From assembly GCA_011525665.1 (NCBI GenBank), contig WYAU01000019.1, positions 1 through 40,181 of the forward strand: 40,181 bases of DNA, read 5' to 3'. Each line of letters begins with the position of its first letter. The stretch's first letter is position 1. Below, piece after piece: positions 4,937-20,953 of the stretch. Origin of the DNA: Candidatus Brocadia sp. (GTDB taxonomy: Bacteria > Planctomycetota > Brocadiia > Brocadiales > Brocadiaceae). Below the pieces are notes generated by a model that saw only the letters and a list, made by a program, of their open reading frames with translations, was not told where the DNA came from and did no database searches. A program made the translations under genes and the position numbers.

Positions 4937-5079
4937 ACGGAGAGCCGCGACCCCGGTTGTTTTATACCAGAGAAAGAAAATTGAATTTCAGGATGAGCAT
5001 AAAGTGCCGGGAATAAGACGAAGTGTGCATACCGTGATGGATGTTCGTGGATTGGAAATACGTAAAGGGAGTGATTGAT

Positions 5080-5136
5080 ATGGTAAATAAAAATGAATTT
5101 CACTATGGTAAAATGAAGGCCTGGAAAAACTTATGA
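5080..5136 (+). CDS. Possible 18-residue leader ORF coupled to cytochrome gene
   Basis: A short frame begins at ATG 5080 with a good ribosome binding site (GGGAGTGA about 6 bases upstream). Its stop codon overlaps the start of the next gene in an ATGA arrangement at 5133-5136. The cytochrome start itself has no convincing site of its own, so this frame may serve to deliver ribosomes by translational coupling. The peptide (start MVNKNEF) has no recognisable domain. Confidence 0.35.
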   Translation: MVNKNEFHYGKMKAWKNL

Positions 5137-6083
5137 ATAAGAGCATGCTAAAAATTACAGCTTTTGGAATTGCAGTTATAGGATTTTATATCTATATCAC
5201 CATATATGTAGCGGGGCTTTCTGGTACGGGCGGAGGCGAGACCGCCGGCGGTGTAAGCCCGGAGGCCGGTGAAAATATCTTCTGGGGAGACGGTCAGTGT
5301 GGTACCTGCCATAAAATAGGGTCAATCGGAAGTGCTACGCGGGGTCCGGATCAGGAAGGATTAGCAATGAGGGCTGAGGAACGTGCAAAAGAGTTGGGTT
5401 TGCCTTCCGGGCTGGATTATCTTGTAGAATCCATTGTGGAGCCAGATAAGTATATTGTCAAGGGTTACGATAAAATTATGCCCAAGGTATACGATCCTCC
5501 TATAATGCTGTCGCGCGAAAAAATACTGGCGGTTTTGGCATATTTGCAGACATTGGGCGGGGAAGCGGACATCAACGCTATTATGAAGTATAAAGATAAG
5601 ATACCGGAGGCATCAAAGAAGAAAGTAAAACCGTGGGTACCTCCTGTCGTAGTTGATGCGAAGGAAGGTGAAAAGGTATTTTTTGATGAAACGCGACCCG
5701 TAACATGTGGAAAATGCCACGTCGTGAATGGGAGAGGAAAAAAGGTGGGACCTGAGCTTACCGGGATTGGTGCAATCCAGACACCTGAATATTTTGTAGA
5801 GTCCATCCTTAAACCCAGCGCAAAGATTGTGAAAGGCTACGAGACGATGTACGTGATAACTTCTGATGGGATACCGTACAACGGATTAATTAAAAGTGAG
5901 ACCGAGGAAGAACTTGTGTTGTTAAAGGAAGAAAGCGGTGAAATCGAGGAGGTCGTAATTCCGAAGTCTGATATCGCCGAAATGAAAAAACAAGAAGTGT
6001 CTATCATGCCGGGGAATATTGGTGAGCTTCTGAGTGTAAGGGACTTTTACGGTATTGTGTCATATTTGCAAAGTTTGAAATAG
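5133..6083 (+). CDS. Membrane-anchored dihaem cytochrome c, Planctomycetes haem-binding type
   Basis: A 316-residue protein with one N-terminal membrane helix (about residues 8-28), likely uncleaved, and two CxxCH haem motifs at 56-60 and 192-196. Two cytochrome c folds are separated by a linker around residue 170. The second domain contains an inserted beta segment after the haem (TSDGIPYNGLIKSETEEE to IPKSDIAEM) and ends in MPGNIGELLSVRD...YLQSL. This is the signature of the putative haem-binding domain common in Planctomycetes, which supports the taxonomic placement. It is the first of five cytochrome genes in a row and most likely relays electrons at the membrane. Its start overlaps the stop of a short upstream frame. 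Confidence 0.85.
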   Translation: MNKSMLKITAFGIAVIGFYIYITIYVAGLSGTGGGETAGGVSPEAGENIFWGDGQCGTCHKIGSIGSATRGPDQEGLAMRAEERAKELGLPSGLDYLVESIVEPDKYIVKGYDKIMPKVYDPPIMLSREKILAVLAYLQTLGGEADINAIMKYKDKIPEASKKKVKPWVPPVVVDAKEGEKVFFDETRPVTCGKCHVVNGRGKKVGPELTGIGAIQTPEYFVESILKPSAKIVKGYETMYVITSDGIPYNGLIKSETEEELVLLKEESGEIEEVVIPKSDIAEMKKQEVSIMPGNIGELLSVRDFYGIVSYLQSLK

Positions 6084-6127
6084 AATGTGCAGTGCATAGC
6101 GATTGAATAATAGTGAGGAGTGTGTGA

Positions 6128-6898
6128 ATGGCTAATAAACGCAAGACTTTTTTGTTTATCTGGATAATAACAGCCGTCGTCTGTTTGTTTCTGTTCCTTA
6201 AATATGCTTCGCCAAAGATTTTTCAGGTGCTCATGGGGAAAGGCCACCCCATGCCCACGCCGAGCACCCTGATGATGTGGTATATGATTATGGGGGTTTT
6301 GGCTGGTCTGGTATACGCGACCACGAGCAATCAGAAGTTTGTGGATTTTTTAAGCTTTTTGCTTCCCGATCAAGGGCCGAGGATCAAGTTTTTTCTGCAA
6401 AAAATAATATTTGTCGGCTTCCCTGTGCTCGTCGGGTGGTTTGTGTATACATGGTCGATTCCGGGGGCTGCTTCACCTGTTGAACTGAGGATTCAGCACC
6501 CAACGTTGCCGCAGGATTTTGAAAAGCTTGAAAATCCGTTCCGGCAAGCAGATGCAGACACACAGAGGAGATGTATCGAAGAAGGAAAGATACTTTTTCA
6601 GACGTATTGTCGTCCCTGTCACGGTTCGAAGGCGGACGGCAATGGGCCGTTTGCGAATTCGTTCCGTCTGAGACCGATCAACTTCCAGGATCCCGGCACG
6701 ATTGCAACGGTGGTAGATAATTACCTTTTCTGGCGAATCAAAGAGGGAGGACCAGGCCTCCCTTCGGAATCTACGCCTTGGGATTCGGGTATGCCATCGT
6801 GGAAAGACGACCTGAAAGACGACGATATCTGGAAGATTATCATGGGTGAATATGATACGGCCGGGGTAATGCCGCGGCAAAGAGAGAAACTTGAGTAG
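6128..6898 (+). CDS. Membrane-bound monohaem cytochrome c
   Basis: A 256-residue protein with about three hydrophobic membrane segments in the first 115 residues (around 10-28, 48-65 and 94-112) followed by a soluble cytochrome c domain. The single haem motif CRPCH is at residues 161-165, followed by the GxGPF and RPxNF pattern of cbb3/CcoP-like cytochromes. A sixth ligand candidate is a methionine in the GMPSW segment near the C-terminus. GAGGAG lies shortly before ATG 6128. The anchoring suggests an electron relay at the membrane between the bd-like protein and the soluble cytochromes. The redox partner is inferred from position only. Confidence 0.83.
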   Translation: MANKRKTFLFIWIITAVVCLFLFLKYASPKIFQVLMGKGHPMPTPSTLMMWYMIMGVLAGLVYATTSNQKFVDFLSFLLPDQGPRIKFFLQKIIFVGFPVLVGWFVYTWSIPGAASPVELRIQHPTLPQDFEKLENPFRQADADTQRRCIEEGKILFQTYCRPCHGSKADGNGPFANSFRLRPINFQDPGTIATVVDNYLFWRIKEGGPGLPSESTPWDSGMPSWKDDLKDDDIWKIIMGEYDTAGVMPRQREKLE

Positions 6899-10659: not shown

Positions 10660-10682
10660 AGAACAATTAATTAAACGTGCCT

Positions 10683-12017
10683 ATGTATAAAAAAATATTT
10701 GTCGCCATTGATAATTCACGCCACTCAAATTTTTGCATTGATATTGGTATAGACCTTGCCAAAAAGTTTGATTCCCTGCTGGTGGGATGTCACGTCTATG
10801 ATGCCACATTGCATCAGAGGAGGTTTCGAGATATGGAAAAAGGCTTGCCGCCACAATATCAGGATGAAAGCGTCCTTCAAAGGCAGCGTGACCTCCATAG
10901 TTCGTTAATTAATCTCGGGCTTAAGTTGATTTCTGAGTCTTATCTGGATGTTTTTAAAAACCGGTGCAGGGAGGAGGATGTTCCGCACGAAGGCCTTTTA
11001 TTGGAAGGCAAAAACTATTATGAGATCATAAGAGAGGTGCAGGAAAATAGCTATGATCTGTTGATTTTGGGGGCGCTTGGTTTGGCGGCAGTAAATGAGC
11101 ATGTGGTCGGGAGTGTTTGTGAGCGTGTGGTCAGACGCATTAAGACCGATGTCCTTGTGGTAAAGGACAGACGTTTAGAGGGTAAGGTGGTAATTGCTGT
11201 AGATGGAAGTTTGCCCTCTTTTGCCGGTGTTAAATCGGCCATTGCGTTTGCAAAATTGTATAACCTGAAGCTTGTTGCGGTCTCCGTTTTTGATCCGCAT
11301 TATCATCGTGTTGCCTTTGAAAGTATTGCAAATGTACTTTCCAAGGAAGCAGGGCAAATTTTCAGATTTAAGGAACAAGAAACGCTCCATGAGGAAATTA
11401 TTGATAAGGGACTTGCAAAGATATATCAGGGCCATTTGGATCAGGTAAGTCGAATGACGGCGGTTGCCGGGGTGGAAACAGATATAATTCTCATGGACGG
11501 TAAACCCTATGATAAAATACTGAAATATATACAGAACGAAAGACCCACAACGGTAATACTGGGCCGTACGGGAGTTCACAACACCAATGGTTTAGACCTT
11601 GGCAGTACAACAGAAAATTTACTGAGGCTGGCCCCTTGCAATGTGTTGCTTGTCGGAGGAAACAAGGAAGCGGGGCGTGATGTATCGGTAGATTGTCAGG
11701 AATTTCGGGAGACGTCTGGAAACGGAAAAGAGGCTGCAGGGAACACCCATGATCAAGTGTTTAAGGAAAATAGTTTTTTGAGAACCCTCAAGGGCGATCA
11801 AAAGGCCTCTGTAGGACAGCAAGCAGAAACACATATACCCGTTTGGACGCAGGAGGCACAAACGCAAACGGAGCGTATTCCCTTATTTGTCAGGGACATG
11901 GTGAGGAAAAAAATTGAGGAGTATGCACAGGAGAAGGGCTGCAGAGAAATAACTACCGAGATAGTCGATGAAGCAAAAACCACGTTTATGAATGAAGGTT
12001 CGTATCGTAAGCCTTGA
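10683..12017 (+). CDS. nxrT: Tandem universal stress protein with PCP_red-like tail, NXR tubule subunit candidate
   Basis: A 444-residue protein without a signal peptide. Two universal stress protein domains span about residues 1-160 and 162-335. Each ends with an intact ATP-binding pattern G-x2-G-x9-G-S (GALG...VVGS and GRTG...DLGST). After a low-complexity linker, residues about 397-440 (IPLFVRDMVRKKIE, YAQEKGCREITTEIV) resemble the small PCP_red domain found at the end of protochlorophyllide reductase subunits. In Kuenenia a universal-stress-type protein next to nxrC is, to my recollection, the tubule-inducing subunit NxrT. Position and domains fit, so I use that symbol tentatively. A GTG at 10677 is an alternative start; ATG 10683 fits the usual MYKKI beginning. 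Confidence 0.75.
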   Translation: MYKKIFVAIDNSRHSNFCIDIGIDLAKKFDSLLVGCHVYDATLHQRRFRDMEKGLPPQYQDESVLQRQRDLHSSLINLGLKLISESYLDVFKNRCREEDVPHEGLLLEGKNYYEIIREVQENSYDLLILGALGLAAVNEHVVGSVCERVVRRIKTDVLVVKDRRLEGKVVIAVDGSLPSFAGVKSAIAFAKLYNLKLVAVSVFDPHYHRVAFESIANVLSKEAGQIFRFKEQETLHEEIIDKGLAKIYQGHLDQVSRMTAVAGVETDIILMDGKPYDKILKYIQNERPTTVILGRTGVHNTNGLDLGSTTENLLRLAPCNVLLVGGNKEAGRDVSVDCQEFRETSGNGKEAAGNTHDQVFKENSFLRTLKGDQKASVGQQAETHIPVWTQEAQTQTERIPLFVRDMVRKKIEEYAQEKGCREITTEIVDEAKTTFMNEGSYRKP

Positions 12018-12524: not shown

Positions 12525-13499
12525 ATGAAGAATGCATATGTATTGTTTAAACGGTATGGTGTGGCCCTCCTGAGCTGCGCGTTTCTGAGCGCTACCCTGT
12601 ATGCAGCGGAGGAAACGGCGCCGGGGGTTAAAGGGGTGACCGAAGAGGAATTTACTCCGGCGAAAGAAGTGTTGACGGTGAAATACGTGGAGATGGCGAA
12701 ACCGTATCATATGGATGTGGAATCGCTGGAGGGTTTTTTTAAGGATGCGCAGGGGGTTACCGTTCCCCTTCAGATGCAGGATAAGGCATTTCCCAATGGT
12801 GGGGGGTCGGTGAAAAGCGCCGAAGTGAAAGGTATTCATGATGGCCTAGCGATATATTTCAAGGTTACCTGGAGCGACCCAACCCGGAATGCAAGGGCAA
12901 TTGCAGTTCAGGAGTTCAGGGATGCTGTGGCCTTGATGTTTCCTTTGGGTGCGGTGGAGATAACGCCAGCCGAACATTTTAGTCCGAGGATGGGAGACAG
13001 AGAAAAACCGACAAATCTCTGGCATTGGAAGGCAGACTGGGAGGCGGATTTGTTAGTGAAAGGCGAGTTGGAGGATATGGAGAACCAGTACCCGAATATG
13101 CATGACGATTGGAATTTTAATCCTTACAGTGCATATTATCACAGGGAATTAATAACCAGCGTTGAAGTGTTATCGGGGGGAAGGGCTGCCCATAACTTGC
13201 TTTCTCAACCGGGGAGGGGGAGAGTGGTAGAAGATTTAAATGCAGAAGGTTTTGGTACACTTACAACTCAGGCGCATCAGGATGTAAACGGATGCAGTAA
13301 ATATGAAGATGGGACATGGACGGTGATTATCTATCGTTCATTGATAACAGAGGATCCCCATGACGTGCAGTTTGTCCCCGGTGGTACTACCTATTTCAAC
13401 ATGGCGGTATGGAATGGGGGAGAGCAAGACAGGAATGGACAAAAGAGCATATCTTCTCAATGGCATCCTGCGACGCTTGAAAGAGTTGCCTGGCAATAA
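12525..13499 (+). CDS. nxrC: Nitrite oxidoreductase gamma subunit NxrC
   Basis: A 324-residue exported protein with a signal peptide (cleavage after about residue 28, LYAAE). The body matches the haem b-binding gamma subunit family of type II DMSO-reductase enzymes (ethylbenzene dehydrogenase gamma, NxrC). NLWHWKADW and GQKSISSQW are the clearest motifs, and they recur in the cytochrome fusion at 6986. No CxxCH is present. Known ligands in the family are a methionine and a lysine; the lysine of HWKADW is the probable one here. It would take electrons from the Fe-S chain of NxrB and hand them to a cytochrome or cupredoxin. It has an exceptionally purine-rich ribosome binding site and lies first in the nxrC-nxrB-chaperone-protease-like-nxrA order. 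Confidence 0.9.
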   Translation: MKNAYVLFKRYGVALLSCAFLSATLYAAEETAPGVKGVTEEEFTPAKEVLTVKYVEMAKPYHMDVESLEGFFKDAQGVTVPLQMQDKAFPNGGGSVKSAEVKGIHDGLAIYFKVTWSDPTRNARAIAVQEFRDAVALMFPLGAVEITPAEHFSPRMGDREKPTNLWHWKADWEADLLVKGELEDMENQYPNMHDDWNFNPYSAYYHRELITSVEVLSGGRAAHNLLSQPGRGRVVEDLNAEGFGTLTTQAHQDVNGCSKYEDGTWTVIIYRSLITEDPHDVQFVPGGTTYFNMAVWNGGEQDRNGQKSISSQWHPATLERVAWQ

Positions 13500-13538: not shown

Positions 13539-14750
13539 ATGACTTTAGTACATAACTGGCATTTAGGGAGAAGGATGGAATATCCCTATTTTGAATCCAG
13601 ACCGAAACACCAGTTTGCTGCAATATTTAACATCAACAGGTGTATTGCCTGTCAGACGTGTACCATGGCCTGTAAGAGTGCATGGTCATATAACAAAGGG
13701 CAGGAACACATGTGGTGGAACAATGTGGAGACCAAACCCTATGGCGGTTATCCGCAATCGTGGGACGTAAAAACGTTAAAATTGATTGATAATGGTGAAA
13801 ATACCTGGTATACCGACGAAAAAGATGAGAAGTTGTCGCCTTATGGGGTATATGAAGGCGATACGATTTTTGAAGCGGCAGCAAAGAAGAATATAAATCA
13901 ATGGGCAGTCGGGTACATTCCGGAAGACAAGGAATGGCGCGCGCCGAATTTTGGAGAAGATGTAGCCAAGAGTAATAAGCCGGATGAATATTCCTCGTTA
14001 CCGGAACATAGTAGATGGTTTTTTTATATTCAGCGCATTTGCAACCATTGTACCTATCCAGGTTGTTTGGCCGCATGCCCCAGAAAGGCTATTTATAAAA
14101 GAAAAGAGGATGGGATTGTTTTAATCGACCAAAAGCGGTGTAGGGGATACCGAAAGTGCGTGGAGCAGTGTCCTTACAAAAAACCCATGTACCGTGGTTT
14201 AACACGGGTAAGTGAAAAGTGTATCGCCTGTTATCCAAGGATTGAAGGAAGGGATCCGTTGACGAAGGGACGTCCCATGGAAACGAGATGTATGGCCGCC
14301 TGCGTAGGGCAGATTCGGTTGCAGGGATTCCTGGACGATAATCCGAAGAACCCGGTCACCTGGTTGATCAGGCACGACAAATTAGCGTTGCCTCTTTACC
14401 CCCAGTTTGGTACGGAGCCTAACATATACTATATACCGCCACGGTGGGCGCCGAGGGCTTATTTGCGGCAGATGTTTGGTCCGGGTGTTGACGAGGCGAT
14501 TGAGAAATTCATGGTGCCTTCCCGAGAAAGACTGGCGGTGATGTCGTTGTTCAGGATGACTCAAACCATCATATTTGAGTATAAGATTGAGGAAGGCCCA
14601 AAGGTGTTTGAGACGACGATTCACGGTAAAAAGTTTGAGTTGTTCAATGATACCGTTATCGGGTATGGTGAGGATGGACAAGAGATTGTAAGGACAACTA
14701 TAGAAGAGCCTGTTCACATCAGAGACCCGAAACATTACAATTCAATTTAG
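13539..14750 (+). CDS. nxrB: Nitrite oxidoreductase beta subunit NxrB, iron-sulfur protein
   Basis: A 403-residue ferredoxin-type electron-transfer subunit of the NarH/NxrB family. Four Cys groups are visible: C35/C38/C41/C45, C168/C171/C176/C180, C201/C207/C211 and C228/C231/C251/C255. These bind four clusters that carry electrons from the NxrA active site to NxrC. In the third group the position taken by a conserved Trp in NarH (CxxWxxC) is Tyr204, still a non-ligand, so a [3Fe-4S] cluster is expected. There is no signal peptide; as in the family it should be exported as a passenger with Tat-targeted NxrA. GGAGG precedes ATG 13539. Confidence 0.95.
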   Translation: MTLVHNWHLGRRMEYPYFESRPKHQFAAIFNINRCIACQTCTMACKSAWSYNKGQEHMWWNNVETKPYGGYPQSWDVKTLKLIDNGENTWYTDEKDEKLSPYGVYEGDTIFEAAAKKNINQWAVGYIPEDKEWRAPNFGEDVAKSNKPDEYSSLPEHSRWFFYIQRICNHCTYPGCLAACPRKAIYKRKEDGIVLIDQKRCRGYRKCVEQCPYKKPMYRGLTRVSEKCIACYPRIEGRDPLTKGRPMETRCMAACVGQIRLQGFLDDNPKNPVTWLIRHDKLALPLYPQFGTEPNIYYIPPRWAPRAYLRQMFGPGVDEAIEKFMVPSRERLAVMSLFRMTQTIIFEYKIEEGPKVFETTIHGKKFELFNDTVIGYGEDGQEIVRTTIEEPVHIRDPKHYNSI

Positions 14751-14765
14751 AATTGAGGTTTATTT

Positions 14766-15557
14766 ATGGAAGCCGATAGGAGTAGTCTTTTAGATTCGGA
14801 GGTAGCATTCAGAGTAGATGGCTTGCTTACACGAAGCTCCATGTATCAGGTTTTATCTGCCTGTTTTCTCTATCCAACAGAAAAAAATTTGACAATGCTG
14901 AAAACTCCTGACATTCAGGAATACCAGAAAGAGTTGATGCTGTGTTACGAAAGAGATGAAAGTGCTGAGTTGAACAGGTGTTTTGGGGAGGTTCTGGAGG
15001 CATTTGCAGCGACATCCATCGAGACATTACAATCTGAATACCAGCGCATTGTCGGGCATACGATGTCAAAGGAGTGTCCTTTGTACGAAACGCAATATGG
15101 CGCATCCCAGGTGTTTCAGCAAGTGCAGGAATTAGGGGATATTCAGGGTTTTTACCGGGCATTCGGACTTGACACTTCTGATATAGAGAAAGAGCGATGC
15201 GACCATGTGAGCGTGGAGTTGGAGTTTATGCATTTTTTGTTGTACAAACAAGCCTACGCCATGGAAAACCATGGTGATGAAAAGGCTCAGATATGCGTGG
15301 ATGCACAAAAGAAATTTCTGAAAGAGCATGTAGGGAAATGGGTTCCCCTCTTCTCGGTTCTTTTTGCCAGAAAGGCGGGGGAAGGTTTTTATTCTGCTGT
15401 GTCTGCTTTGACAAAAGAGTTCCTGAGGCTGGAAATGAAATTGATGGATGTGAAAACAGAGATATATAAGGAATCTGATCTCAATCAAGAGGCGGTAGCA
15501 GGGGCTTCAGATGAATGTTTGTCCTGCGCATCCTCCGAAGATTTCAGTGAGGAGTGA
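14766..15557 (+). CDS. NarJ/TorD-type molybdoenzyme assembly chaperone
   Basis: A 263-residue, mostly helical cytoplasmic protein. The core (about residues 15-220) has the pattern of TorD/NarJ chaperones: a YQVLSACFLYP start, LQSEYQRIVGHT, and the C-P-L-YETQYG and H-V-S-V-ELEFMHFLLYKQ segments. These chaperones bind the Tat signal and apo-form of the molybdenum subunit and hold back export until the cofactor is in place. Its position between nxrB and nxrA says the client is NxrA. The C-terminal ~25 residues are acidic with two cysteines (CLSC) and lie outside the usual domain. Confidence 0.88.
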   Translation: MEADRSSLLDSEVAFRVDGLLTRSSMYQVLSACFLYPTEKNLTMLKTPDIQEYQKELMLCYERDESAELNRCFGEVLEAFAATSIETLQSEYQRIVGHTMSKECPLYETQYGASQVFQQVQELGDIQGFYRAFGLDTSDIEKERCDHVSVELEFMHFLLYKQAYAMENHGDEKAQICVDAQKKFLKEHVGKWVPLFSVLFARKAGEGFYSAVSALTKEFLRLEMKLMDVKTEIYKESDLNQEAVAGASDECLSCASSEDFSEE

Positions 15558-15559
15558 TT

Positions 15560-16513
15560 ATGAAGCTGGAATTTGATCCGGGTTTGATTGAAGAAGTACT
15601 CTTTGGGGAGTTAAAGGCACGGGAGGGAAAGGGGGATTTTTCCCTGACGCTCGAGTATCATTCATGCATTGATCCTGTCTATGAAAATTTTCCCTTAGAT
15701 GAAAGACCTTCGCAGTTTAAAAAGATTGAGTGGGATTTTTTTAAAAAACTGGAGCTCCCGAAGCTCATAAGAGAAATTTTCGAAGAATTCCCCGATCTTG
15801 GCGAAAAAGCCTGCGGGGGGGTTATTGCCAAGGCTGTGAATAATTTTGACGAAGGCTCTTATCTTACCAAAGGTATGAACCAGGATTCCGGCCAAAAAAG
15901 GATTGTTATCAAATTGCTGCCAGACCGATTCCTGGACATTCCTTATCTTAAAAAATTGGTCAGGCATGAATTGATGCATGCCTCTGATATGCTCAGCGAA
16001 TCGTACGGCTATCGTGATGAGCGCCTCGGCGGTAACCCCATGGAGGAAAGCATTGTCAAGGAGCGGTATTGTGTCTTTTGGGATATTTACGTTGATAGCA
16101 GATTGATCAGGAAAGGGAAAGAGACGCTTTCCGATAAGGAACAGCGCTATGCCGAGTTTGCATCTCTTTATAAAAAGATTCCTGATGAAGTGAAAATGGC
16201 TATCTTTGATGTCCTGTGGCAGGATGAGAAGTTAACTCATGACAGGATACTGGTTATGGCAAAAGATGTGAATGAGGTAATTAAAATTTCTGAAGGGTTG
16301 CCGATAAATCATGTCCTTAAGAAGAAAAAGACCATCCTGCCCGGTGCCCAATGTCCGCTATGCCAATTTCGGACATATCAGTGGGCGGAGGGTATTGAAC
16401 AAGATGCCTATCTTGTGAATGAAATAAAAAAGGATTTTCCCGACTGGGAACCCGAGGATGGTGTGTGTGGTCAGTGTATAGAGGCTTATAAAATAAGAAA
16501 AATGGTTTGTTGA
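15560..16513 (+). CDS. HExxH protein with C-terminal zinc-ribbon-like cysteines
   Basis: I do not recognise this as a named family. The 317-residue protein has no signal peptide. HELMH at residues 136-140 fits the HExxH zinc-metallopeptidase motif, and acidic residues follow in the next 40 positions (for example EESIVKER) as in gluzincin-like enzymes. The tail holds CPLC (265-268) and CGQC (303-306), a probable structural zinc site, and ends in cysteine. I chose ATG 15560 over GTG 15554 because GAGGAG is correctly spaced for it. It begins two bases after the chaperone stop, inside the nxr operon and immediately before nxrA. A role in NXR maturation or quality control is likely but unproven. 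Confidence 0.7.
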   Translation: MKLEFDPGLIEEVLFGELKAREGKGDFSLTLEYHSCIDPVYENFPLDERPSQFKKIEWDFFKKLELPKLIREIFEEFPDLGEKACGGVIAKAVNNFDEGSYLTKGMNQDSGQKRIVIKLLPDRFLDIPYLKKLVRHELMHASDMLSESYGYRDERLGGNPMEESIVKERYCVFWDIYVDSRLIRKGKETLSDKEQRYAEFASLYKKIPDEVKMAIFDVLWQDEKLTHDRILVMAKDVNEVIKISEGLPINHVLKKKKTILPGAQCPLCQFRTYQWAEGIEQDAYLVNEIKKDFPDWEPEDGVCGQCIEAYKIRKMVC

Positions 16514-16577: not shown

Positions 16578-19500
16578 ATGAAACTTACCAGAAGAACTTT
16601 CCTACAAGTGGCAGGCGCAACAGGAGCGACATTTACAGTTGCCAATAAGGCGATGGCTTTCAGGCTCTTAAAACCTGCCGTGGAGGTAGGGAACCCCTTA
16701 GATGCTTACCCCGATCGTGCATGGGAAAGTGTCTATCGAGACCAGTATCGGTATGATCGGACATTTACGTTTACGTGTTCGCCGAATGACACCCACGCCT
16801 GCAGGGTGAGGGCGTTTGTGAGGAACGAAGTGGTTATGAGGGTTGAGCAGAATTATGACCATCAGAATTACGCAGACCTCTATGGGAATAAGGCAACCAG
16901 GAACTGGAATCCTAGGATGTGTCTGAAAGGTTATACCTTCCACCGCAGGGTTTATGGCCCATATCGGTTGCGATATCCCCTTATCAGAAAAGGGTGGAAA
17001 CAATGGGCAGATGATGGATTTCCTGAATTGACACCGGAAAATAAGTCAAAATATATGTTCGACGCCAGAGGACAGGATGAACTCTTAAAGGCATCCTGGG
17101 ATGATGCCTGGACGTATGCTGCAAAAGGGATTATCCACATTACTAAGAAATACAGTGGTGAAGAGGGCGCCAAGAAGCTCATAGAGCAAGGGTATCCGAA
17201 AGAGATGGTAGATGCCATGAAGGGTGCAGGCACGAGAACGTTCAAGGGGCGTGGCGGTATGGGTCTCCTTGGCGTTATAGGGAAGTATGGCATGTACCGG
17301 TTTAACAATATGCTTTCCCTGGTTGATAGTCATAACAGGGGCGTAGGGCCTGATAAGGCATTGGGCGGGAGGAACTGGTCGAACTATACATGGCATGGCG
17401 ATCAGGCCCCAGGTCACCCTTTCTCTCATGGTCTCCAGACCTCAGATGTTGATATGAATGATATTCGGTTTTCGAAACTGGTCATCCAAACGGGAAAGAA
17501 CCTGATTGAAAATAAAATGCCTGAGGCGCACTGGCTGACCCAGGTTATGGAGAGAGGCGGAAAACTCGTTGTTATTACGCCCGAGTATAGTCCGTCTGCT
17601 CAAAAGGCCGACTACTGGATCCCGATCAAGTGTAATACGGATACGGCGCTCTTTTTAGGCTTGACAAAGATATTGATGGATGAGAATCTCTACGACGCGG
17701 ATTATGTAAAGAAGTTTACCGATTTCCCGTTGCTTGTCAGGACAGATACCTTGAAAAGATTGCAGGCAAAGGATATTTTCCCCGATTACAAATTAGAAGA
17801 TATTTCTCATGGCCCAAGCTACAAGCTTCATGGCCTCCACGATGACCAGAGAGAAATCATAGGGGATTTTGTCGTGTGGGATGCAAAGACAAAGGGTCCA
17901 AAGCCGATCACGAGGGACGATGTTGGTGATAAACTAACGGCCAAAGGAATTGACCCCGTTCTTAATGGCACATTTAAAGTAAAAACGGTTGATGGTAAAG
18001 AGATTGAGGTTATGCCTCTCTTTGAGATGTATAAGATTCATCTGAAAGATTACGATATTGACAGTGTCGTAGAAATGACCAATTCTCCAAAAGAGTTGAT
18101 TGTAAGGTTAGCGCACGACATTGCGACCATAAAACCAGTGGCAATCCATTATGGTGAGGGTATTAATCACTATTTCCATGCGACACTCATGAACCGGTCC
18201 ACCTATTTACCTCTCATGCTAACCGGAAATGTAGGGTATATGGGATCTGGTTCTCATACCTGGGCAGGAAATTATAAGGCTGGCAATTTCCAAGCAGCAA
18301 AGTGGTGCGGTCCTGGGTTTTACGGTTGGGTGGCAGAAGATGTGTTTAATCCAAACCTCGATCCGGACGCCCCGGCAATGGATTTAAAGGTAAAGGGCCG
18401 TGCCTATGACGAAGAAGTTGCATACTGGAACCATAATGACAGGCCTTTAATTGTAAATACGCCGAAGTATGGACGTAAATGCTTCACCGGCAAGACGCAC
18501 ATGCCAACTCCGACCAAGATCATGTGGTTCACCAACGTAAACCTGGTCAATAACGCAAAGCATGTGTATCAGATGCTGAAGAATGTGAACCCCAATATTG
18601 AGCAGATCATGTCTACGGATATCGAAATGACGGGTTCCATCGAATATGCAGATTTTGCGTTCCCGGCAAATAGCTGGATGGAGTTTGAGACCCACGAGAT
18701 TACCAGTTCTTGCTCCAATCCGTTCTTCCAGATATGGAAGGGTGGTATAAGACCGGTGAACGACTCCAAGGACGATGTGATGGTCCTGGCCGGTATGGCG
18801 GCCAAGCTGGGTGAGTTGCTCAGGGACATGAGATTCAGGGACTTCTGGAAGTTTGCCCTGGAGGGAAGGCCTGAAGTCTATATTCAGAGATTGTTGGACG
18901 GCAGTACGACATCGAAGGGATACACCTTTGATGACATCGTAGCCGGTAAGTACGGTGAGCCTGGCGTGGCCCTGTTAAATTACAGAACGTATCCCAGACA
19001 GCCATTCTGGGAACAGGTGCACGAGAGTCTGCCATTCTATACGCCAACGGGGAGATTGCAGGCATACAATGATGAATCAGAGATCATTGAATATGGCGAG
19101 AATTTCATCGTGCATCGTGAAGGTCCTGAGGCAACGCAGTACCTGCCGAACGTAATTGTGAGCACCAATCCTTACATCCGTCCGGATGATTATGGAATTC
19201 CGGAGAGTGCAGAGCACTGGGACGAAAGAACCGTAAGGAACATCAAGAAATCATGGGCAGAGACGAAGCAAACAAAGAATTTCCTGTGGGAGAAAGGGTA
19301 TAAGTTCTTCTGTGTAACTCCAAAATCAAGGCATACGGTGCACTCTCAATGGGCCGTGACCGACTGGAACTTCATCTGGAACAACAATTTTGGTGATCCA
19401 TACAGAATGGATAAGAGAATGCCCGGCGTTGGTGAGCATCAAATTAATATCAACCCGCAGGCAGCGAAAGACTTGGGTATTAATGACGGCGATTATGTGT

Positions 19501-20027
19501 ACGTCGATGCTAATCCGGCAGATAGGCCTTATGAAGGATGGAAGCCAAATGATCCTTTCTATAAGGTGTCAAGACTTATGCTCAGGGCAAAGTATAATTC
19601 TTCCTATCCTTACGATGTAACAATGATTAAGCACTCTTCGTGGATTGCAACAGAAAGGAGTGTGAAGGCTCATGAAACCAGGCCCGATGGCAGGGCATTA
19701 TCAGCGGGTACTGGATATCAATCGAGTTTCCGTTACGGTTCTCAACAGAGTCTTACCAGGGACTGGTCTATGCCGATGCACCAGCTTGACAGCCTGTTCC
19801 ACAAGGCCAAGATCGGCATGAAGTTTGTCTTCGGTTTCGAGGCCGATAACCACGGTATCAATACGGTTCCCAAGGAGACCCTGGTGAAGGTTAGCAAGGC
19901 TGAGGATGGTGGTATTGGGGGTAAGGGGTTGTGGGATCCGGCAAAAACCGGATATACAACCGGCAATGAAAATGACTTTATGAAGAAGTATCTGAATGGT
20001 GAACTGATAAAGGTGGAAAAGGCTTAA
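16578..20027 (+). CDS. nxrA: Nitrite oxidoreductase catalytic subunit NxrA, molybdenum enzyme
   Basis: A 1149-residue type II DMSO-reductase-family enzyme that oxidises nitrite to nitrate at a molybdenum bis-MGD centre. The N-terminus carries a Tat signal (LTRRTFLQVAG, cleavage near AMA at residue 27). The first Fe-S site reads C67-x3-D71-x3-C75 and C115, so Asp takes the place of one usual Cys or His. The molybdenum ligand expected by comparison with NarG is D275 in WHGDQAPG. The downstream GLQTSDVDMND, VVITPEYSPSAQKADYW and DTALFLGL segments match the family. A strong AAAGGAG site precedes ATG 16578. With NxrB and NxrC it would form the complex on the anammoxosome side. A terminator follows directly. 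Confidence 0.95.
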   Translation: MKLTRRTFLQVAGATGATFTVANKAMAFRLLKPAVEVGNPLDAYPDRAWESVYRDQYRYDRTFTFTCSPNDTHACRVRAFVRNEVVMRVEQNYDHQNYADLYGNKATRNWNPRMCLKGYTFHRRVYGPYRLRYPLIRKGWKQWADDGFPELTPENKSKYMFDARGQDELLKASWDDAWTYAAKGIIHITKKYSGEEGAKKLIEQGYPKEMVDAMKGAGTRTFKGRGGMGLLGVIGKYGMYRFNNMLSLVDSHNRGVGPDKALGGRNWSNYTWHGDQAPGHPFSHGLQTSDVDMNDIRFSKLVIQTGKNLIENKMPEAHWLTQVMERGGKLVVITPEYSPSAQKADYWIPIKCNTDTALFLGLTKILMDENLYDADYVKKFTDFPLLVRTDTLKRLQAKDIFPDYKLEDISHGPSYKLHGLHDDQREIIGDFVVWDAKTKGPKPITRDDVGDKLTAKGIDPVLNGTFKVKTVDGKEIEVMPLFEMYKIHLKDYDIDSVVEMTNSPKELIVRLAHDIATIKPVAIHYGEGINHYFHATLMNRSTYLPLMLTGNVGYMGSGSHTWAGNYKAGNFQAAKWCGPGFYGWVAEDVFNPNLDPDAPAMDLKVKGRAYDEEVAYWNHNDRPLIVNTPKYGRKCFTGKTHMPTPTKIMWFTNVNLVNNAKHVYQMLKNVNPNIEQIMSTDIEMTGSIEYADFAFPANSWMEFETHEITSSCSNPFFQIWKGGIRPVNDSKDDVMVLAGMAAKLGELLRDMRFRDFWKFALEGRPEVYIQRLLDGSTTSKGYTFDDIVAGKYGEPGVALLNYRTYPRQPFWEQVHESLPFYTPTGRLQAYNDESEIIEYGENFIVHREGPEATQYLPNVIVSTNPYIRPDDYGIPESAEHWDERTVRNIKKSWAETKQTKNFLWEKGYKFFCVTPKSRHTVHSQWAVTDWNFIWNNNFGDPYRMDKRMPGVGEHQININPQAAKDLGINDGDYVYVDANPADRPYEGWKPNDPFYKVSRLMLRAKYNSSYPYDVTMIKHSSWIATERSVKAHETRPDGRALSAGTGYQSSFRYGSQQSLTRDWSMPMHQLDSLFHKAKIGMKFVFGFEADNHGINTVPKETLVKVSKAEDGGIGGKGLWDPAKTGYTTGNENDFMKKYLNGELIKVEKA

Positions 20028-20090: not shown

Positions 20091-20128
20091 AGAAAATTTT
20101 TATGAGGACAGAAGGAGAGAAAATTTTT

Positions 20129-20857
20129 ATGAAAAAATATCTTATTTCCGGTATGCTGGCTATTTCGTGCGTGGCATTCTCGTCTTATTCGCCTGTGTGG
20201 GCTCAAGCTGAGGAGAAGAAGGCGTTGACGGCTGAAGAGGTCGCTGAAGCCCAGAGGAAGCTGGAAGAAGCGCAGCAAAAGCTGAAAAAGGCAGTCAAAA
20301 ATTTACCCAAGGTAGAGAATGCTGGTTCCATTACGGGCATTGTAACCTGCCAAAAAATGAGGAACAATGCCGATGCGGTTGTATTTATCGAGAAGGTTGG
20401 AGACAACAAGTTTGATCCTCCCGCGGAACATGCAGTTGTTGATCAGCTTAATCTTACGTATGTACCTCGCGTTGTAGCTATGCAGAAAGGTACAACCGTT
20501 GATTTTCCCAACAGTGACGCAGTACGTCACAACGTATTTTCTCCTCCGACCGCAGCCTTGCAGTTTAATCTCGGTACATATCCTACCGGTGTTGTAAAAG
20601 AGGTGCTTTTTGATGTTGTGGGTGAGACCCCCCTCCTCTGCAACGTTCATGCGGAAATGGCTGGATTTGTTGTTACCTTTGAAAATCCTTATTTTGCGAT
20701 AACGGATAAAGATGGAAATTACACAATTGATGGCGTTCCGCCGGGAAAATATGTGGTAAAAACATGGCACGAAAAACTCAAGGAGCTATCCCAGGAGGTT
20801 ACCGTAGAACCGGGGAAAGCAAGTACGGCGAATTTTGATTTGAAGAGAAGAAGATAA
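20129..20857 (+). CDS. Second exported amicyanin-like cupredoxin protein
   Basis: A 242-residue protein with a signal peptide (cleavage near VWAQA, residue 29), a Glu/Lys-rich helical segment (about 30-58, possibly coiled coil), then a cupredoxin-type domain. Copper-ligand candidates are H134 and C171-x2-H174-x2-M177. Residues about 190-240 form a carboxypeptidase-regulatory-like repeat (ITDKDGNYTIDGVPPGKYVVKTWHEKL). It is a paralogue of the protein at 1981, sharing NPYFA(V/I)TD and the same copper spacing. I chose ATG 20129 because GGAGAG lies about 10 bases upstream; an in-frame ATG at 20102 has no such site. It probably carries electrons for NXR. Confidence 0.82.
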   Translation: MKKYLISGMLAISCVAFSSYSPVWAQAEEKKALTAEEVAEAQRKLEEAQQKLKKAVKNLPKVENAGSITGIVTCQKMRNNADAVVFIEKVGDNKFDPPAEHAVVDQLNLTYVPRVVAMQKGTTVDFPNSDAVRHNVFSPPTAALQFNLGTYPTGVVKEVLFDVVGETPLLCNVHAEMAGFVVTFENPYFAITDKDGNYTIDGVPPGKYVVKTWHEKLKELSQEVTVEPGKASTANFDLKRRR

Positions 20858-20917
20858 TCTGCGAGTTGAAGTGTTCGTTCCATGTTCTTGCAGGCAGCTA
20901 GTGCAGCAGTGAAAATT

Positions 20918-20953
20918 CCAGCGAGGTCTGAAGAGCCTCGCTGGATTTTTTTT
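20918..20953 (+). terminator. Strong Rho-independent terminator
   Basis: A perfect 9-bp GC-rich stem (20918-20926 with 20936-20944) and 9-base loop are followed by one A and eight T. It ends the cupredoxin transcript and separates the NXR island from the ispG operon. Confidence 0.92.

Follow-up and report, generated by a model that had tools for sequence, protein, structure and literature searches.

The 40,181-nucleotide stretch analyzed here (the window) derives from a Brocadia-like anammox genome and encodes, on the forward strand, a cluster for NXR, the nitrate-forming nitrite oxidoreductase of anammox bacteria, whose members were recognized by family matches, namely nxrC for the haem b subunit (12525–13499), nxrB for the Fe-S subunit (13539–14750), a chaperone of the TorD/DMSO-reductase type II family (14766–15557), and nxrA for the molybdopterin subunit with its Tat signal (16578–20027). 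The cluster ends with a gene for a cupredoxin-like/carboxypeptidase-regulatory-like protein (20102–20857), assigned to the kustd1699 position by family match and synteny, and is closed on the same strand by an intrinsic-terminator-like hairpin with 11 pairs and a T8 tract visible in the sequence (20917–20945). Between the chaperone gene and nxrA lies a further forward-strand gene (15560–16513) coding for a 317-residue HExxH/four-Cys protein, termed HX in the following. Its ATG at 15560 is preceded by a ribosome-binding-like GAGGAG; the alternative GTG at 15554 would give 319 residues and overlaps the stop of the chaperone gene.

The HELMH motif of HX (residues 136–140; 15965–15979) falls within a modeled helix spanning residues 127–145, and is followed by the aspartate D179 of the stretch WDIYVDSRL (16094–16096) and by a C-terminal four-Cys module of the form CPLC-x34-CGQC (CPLC 265–268, CGQC 303–306; 16352–16477), whose second CxxC is predicted to sit at the N-terminus of a helix. 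HELMH and the Cys pairs are conserved among orthologues down to ~40% identity and are therefore not chance occurrences; together with the coordinates, this conservation confirms the ORF with HELMH and two C-terminal CxxC pairs that a sequence-only reading of this DNA had placed between chaperone and nxrA. The same reading had noted the absence of a signal peptide, which is borne out in that no hydrophobic stretch was found at the N-terminus, and HX is accordingly predicted to be cytoplasmic/intracellular. Scans against Pfam, NCBIfam, and PHROGs returned no family above cut-off, and the HX family is without a curated Pfam or NCBIfam model.

A locus with the nxrA and nxrB lengths of Kuenenia (1148 and 410 aa) and the kustd1699–1706 gene order (G070, L093) allows HX to be equated with kustd1701 by synteny. 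In an NO-fed Kuenenia reactor the kustd1701 transcript was down 5.5-fold along with the whole cluster, and, in contrast to the abundant NxrA, B, and C, neither the kustd1701 protein nor that of kustd1702 (chaperone) was detected (PMC6423088); this non-detection is weak evidence. The purified NXR complex consists of NXR-A, B, and C, to which tubule proteomics added NXR-T, with kustd1701 absent (PMC8387239). A passage of a 2013 paper on Nitrospina counts ‘one putative zinc finger’ protein with the genes that the NXR clusters of Kuenenia, Nitrospira, and Nitrospina have in common, with no mention in that passage of an HExxH motif, fold, or function (PMC3578206), and by elimination we infer this protein to be HX. 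The earlier label ‘undescribed’ hence holds for the want of a characterization and a family model, but HX is better called uncharacterized than wholly unnoticed, given that passage.

A scan with the single HX protein as query, which reaches close relatives only, recovered 13 of them, most of which belong to anammox genomes that are named or assigned to Brocadiaceae. A profile built from 14 orthologues, used in a search centered on Planctomycetota, matched 63 of 392 genomes, and its orthologues occur in NXR operons of both anammox bacteria and other Planctomycetota. Among the long-form matches, 46 of 57 lie no more than 6 kb from an NxrA gene on the same contig; most of the remaining 11 are at contig ends or on short contigs, several of them adjoining the chaperone gene or nxrB. 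There are two true exceptions to the linkage, viz., an HX-TorD pair away from any nxrAB (L044) and an additional copy, devoid of the histidines, beside unrelated genes (L062). The former pair occupies positions 5030–6789 of a locus in which the 14 kb read contain neither nxrA nor nxrB, and its genome has no NxrA match at E 1e-100. The gene order reads C-B-D-HX-A in Brocadiaceae, C-B-ribbon-D-HX-A in Scalindua, and Cc-A-B-D-HX, Cc-HX-A-B-D, or HX-A-B-D-Cc in other planctomycetes (D, chaperone). With at least four such orders, the adjacency of HX and nxr has been kept through rearrangement. The search for unlinked copies thus found the orthologues to be mostly nxr-linked, and the proposed dedication to NXR stands on this linkage, on the varied gene orders, and on a presence that tracks one NxrA group (see below). 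The genome of the window has a single HX copy, and a search for a plasmid copy found none.

The Scalindua nxr clusters (L013, 4141–4773; L084, 6550–7161; L085, 9113–9703; L092, 1833–2435) encode an extra protein of ~200 aa between nxrB and the chaperone gene, which combines a signal-peptide-like N-terminus with only the four-Cys module of HX. NXR chaperones often carry a Cys-containing C-terminal tail (ASDECLSCASSEDFSEE in the window, in the product of 14766–15557). This tail was considered as a partner of HX and rejected because it is present in operons both with and without HX.

In the same genome set, an NxrA search matched 88 genomes. Among the operons examined, those whose NxrA is at least ~60% identical to that of the window contain HX, and those with NxrA at 55–59% or 41–45% identity are devoid of it, most of the latter being complete with respect to C, A, B, and the chaperone. 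In a tree of 52 NxrA proteins, the 37 from operons with HX are separated from the 15 from operons without it by one change (support 93); HX is a marker of one NxrA group. A second family in the same order, tentatively taken for Bathyanammoxibiaceae, has its NXR operons among those lacking HX; hence, HX is not universal even within the order. Bathyanammoxibiaceae have been described as having a basal anammox NxrA (PMC10467342). Common descent, and not a need for HX, could account for its restriction to one clade.

In other Brocadiaceae genomes, a second nxr operon occurs that lacks HX (L120 and, over the part read, L119). There are also Brocadiaceae genomes with a lone second nxrA, ~93–94% identical, that has no nxrB, nxrC, chaperone, or HX gene nearby (L116, L117, L118, L121, L123, and, with a broken frame, L122). 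Given such second copies, HX would act in trans. Its median identity (27%) is close to that of the chaperone (29%; NxrA, 65%), and its distances correlate with those of NxrA, NxrB, and TorD. The single copy, the HX-less second nxrA genes and operons, and the chaperone-like divergence together fit a sub-stoichiometric trans-acting factor and not a subunit.

AlphaFold2 on 13 orthologues provides a view of the probable fold. In the model (mean pLDDT 85.7), the HELMH-bearing helix 127–145 is followed by a further helix, 160–184. Foldseek returned no match below E 0.001 with this model, the best PDB entry being a putative zinc metallopeptidase at E 0.085, and SprT-like and IrrE-like proteins appeared among weak matches to viral models. 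The VIA-align matches, likewise weak, were led by YbeY (Z 5.4), followed by SPRTN (6mdx, 4.6), BlaR1 (4.4), and selecase (4.3). PDB sequence searches with an anammox profile and a wide profile recovered chance-level chains only. Though the individual matches are weak, zincins recur among them, which supports a zincin-like core, and the ‘protease-like’ of the sequence-only reading agrees with this prediction and with the helical location of HELMH in the model. The Cys module modeled alone (pLDDT 75.9) again has its second CxxC at the start of a helix; a search for a PDB fold match to the module found none, and from the order of its elements it may be treble-clef-like.

Comparisons with known families place HX near several of them. 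SprT proteins are zincins that combine HExxH with a C-terminal Cys module, and HX resembles such SprT/SPRTN-like zincins (PF10263) in having both elements. It differs from them in the lack of a conserved third His downstream of HExxH and in its link to NXR rather than DNA repair; the PF10263 profile did not match HX, with one family member reaching E 0.014. Atp23 (Peptidase M76), a mitochondrial protease that is also an assembly chaperone of the ATP synthase, shares the HExxHxxD pattern with HX, whose NXR-linked forms differ by extra N- and C-terminal parts. Against the Peptidase_M76 model (PF09768; cut-off 25.2 bits), the best score was 19.8 bits in a short paralogue, and none of 59 genomes rose above the cut-off. 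The selecases or minigluzincins (MJ1213, 4qhj) resemble HX in the VIA-align match (Z 4.3) and, for the short-paralogue profile only, in a match at E 0.03 spanning the N-terminal half and HExxH; they differ in being a single small domain, and we know of no link between them and metalloenzyme operons. We accordingly file HX as a zincin-like protein outside SprT, M76, and the selecases.

The short paralogues just mentioned (~205–235 aa, with no Cys module) are encoded away from nxr, for example, after mfd-like and surA-like genes, and their existence indicates that the core can work elsewhere. Several of them (L063, L076, L077, L079–L082) stand alone and have a strongly conserved RRYKYLWNxYIDSRL motif.

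The HExxH motif is intact in all 19 anammox copies, 17 non-anammox long forms, and 11 short paralogues. H136 and/or H140 are replaced in 12 of the 29 non-anammox long forms, nearly all of which are still in the operon; these histidine-less copies, which are open frames with pairwise dN/dS estimates <1 (dN 0.38, dS 0.79 for L046–L067), have nearly always retained E137, D143, W174, and R181. On the tree, the loss of the zinc histidines requires at least four separate changes. A loss of HExxH in most orthologues, which had been named as a refutation of the protease proposal, was looked for and is not the case. As to a third ligand, D143 and D179 are present in 46 and 42 of the 47 HExxH-intact sequences, respectively, and the only downstream His above 55% is H227 (27/47), which is far from HExxH and absent in many. 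Residues vanishing together with the histidines were sought to name this ligand, a comparison confounded by phylogeny; D179 is the best candidate, as yet unproven. Since the protease residues are missing from several relatives, cutting is probably not the essential job of HX. With the metal histidines repeatedly lost and the gene kept, binding is likely to be the conserved function and catalysis, if present in anammox bacteria, an added layer.

We propose that HX serves one clade of periplasmic-type NXR as a dedicated cytoplasmic factor for assembly or quality control, sub-stoichiometric in amount and built on a peptidase fold with optional catalysis; to this reading we assign a probability of about one half. 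In such a protein, a helical region at the N-terminus would precede a zincin-like core of peptidase origin, which holds HExxH, and a predicted four-Cys zinc module would form the C-terminal part. While cofactors are loaded and before Tat export, it would probably bind one or more of NxrA, NxrB, and the chaperone. In anammox bacteria, the intact metal site could clip mis-assembled or unfolded subunits; at least four other lineages have lost the metal histidines yet mostly retain the gene in the operon, so that the conserved function is likely to be binding and not cutting. Counting against an assembly factor are the weakness of the fold match (best Z 5.4 with VIA-align and E 0.085 with Foldseek) and the operons, in the second family of the order and elsewhere, that do without HX; the short nxr-unlinked paralogues and the possibility of mere common descent behind the clade restriction also weigh against it. 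More tentatively, HX may typify a new peptidase-derived family of assembly factors for one NXR clade, with zinc peptidase activity in anammox bacteria and repeated conversion to a pseudo-peptidase elsewhere, and would then define a biogenesis step without a described counterpart in other type II DMSO reductases.

The two putative metal sites might instead mark a factor for metal or cofactor handling (transfer of Zn, Fe-S, or the Mo cofactor), HExxH and the four cysteines being metal sites and not parts of a protease. The pairing with the chaperone gene and the Scalindua proteins in which a signal-peptide-like N-terminus precedes the Cys module and nothing else of HX would suit this alternative, but the motifs are of the zinc type rather than redox, and the histidines are dispensable in several lineages, so that we regard it as doubtful.

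The sequence-only reading had suggested a zinc protease or protease-like chaperone for a maturation or quality-control step, and had pointed to the maturation protease of NiFe-hydrogenases, of which no counterpart is established for this molybdenum family. The hydrogenase maturation proteases HybD and HycI have another fold without HExxH and cut a C-terminal extension of their substrate; they are akin to HX in the idea of an operon-linked maturation factor but differ in that extension, which NxrA does not show. The corresponding alternative is an active, site-specific metallopeptidase that trims NxrA or NxrB as a pre-export checkpoint, to which the HExxH of all 19 anammox copies, the zincin-like fold prediction, the gene position, and the missing signal peptide would be well suited. 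Yet 12 of 29 non-anammox copies are without the histidines, which were lost at least four times. A search for a removable terminal extension on NxrA found its C-terminus to be at the same place whether or not the operon contains HX, and no obvious extra tail was found on NxrB. In addition, the NxrA sequence deposited for 7b04 (the deposited sequence, not the modeled residues) aligns to residue 1147 of 1148 and is thus co-terminal with the gene product. For these reasons a hydrogenase-like maturation cut is disfavored and the trimming peptidase appears unlikely. The earlier proposal survives in its NXR dedication, a cytoplasmic location as judged by sequence, and the predicted zincin-like fold.

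A regulator of nxr expression built on a metallopeptidase or zinc ribbon, comparable to ImmA/IrrE, is called to mind by the IrrE-like and SprT-like models among the weak structural matches and by a sigma-54 regulator near several clusters; we consider it improbable, because no recognized DNA-binding domain was found in HX, no repressor gene was seen paired with it, and it always occurs among structural and chaperone genes. A general housekeeping or SprT-type DNA-protein-crosslink protease residing there by chance is highly improbable, for the SprT-like arrangement of zincin core and C-terminal four-Cys module and the short paralogues elsewhere in the genomes are outweighed by the almost exclusive nxr linkage through rearrangements and the lack of a conserved third His.

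HX is an accessory gene of one clade in which the active site has been lost naturally in some lineages, and it opens the way to direct tests of what NXR maturation needs, including heterologous production, and the operons without HX point to NXR enzymes that may be easier to express. Upstream of nxrC, the window further encodes (10677–12017) a fusion of universal stress protein domains with a PCP_red domain, which corresponds to the C-terminal part of BchB.
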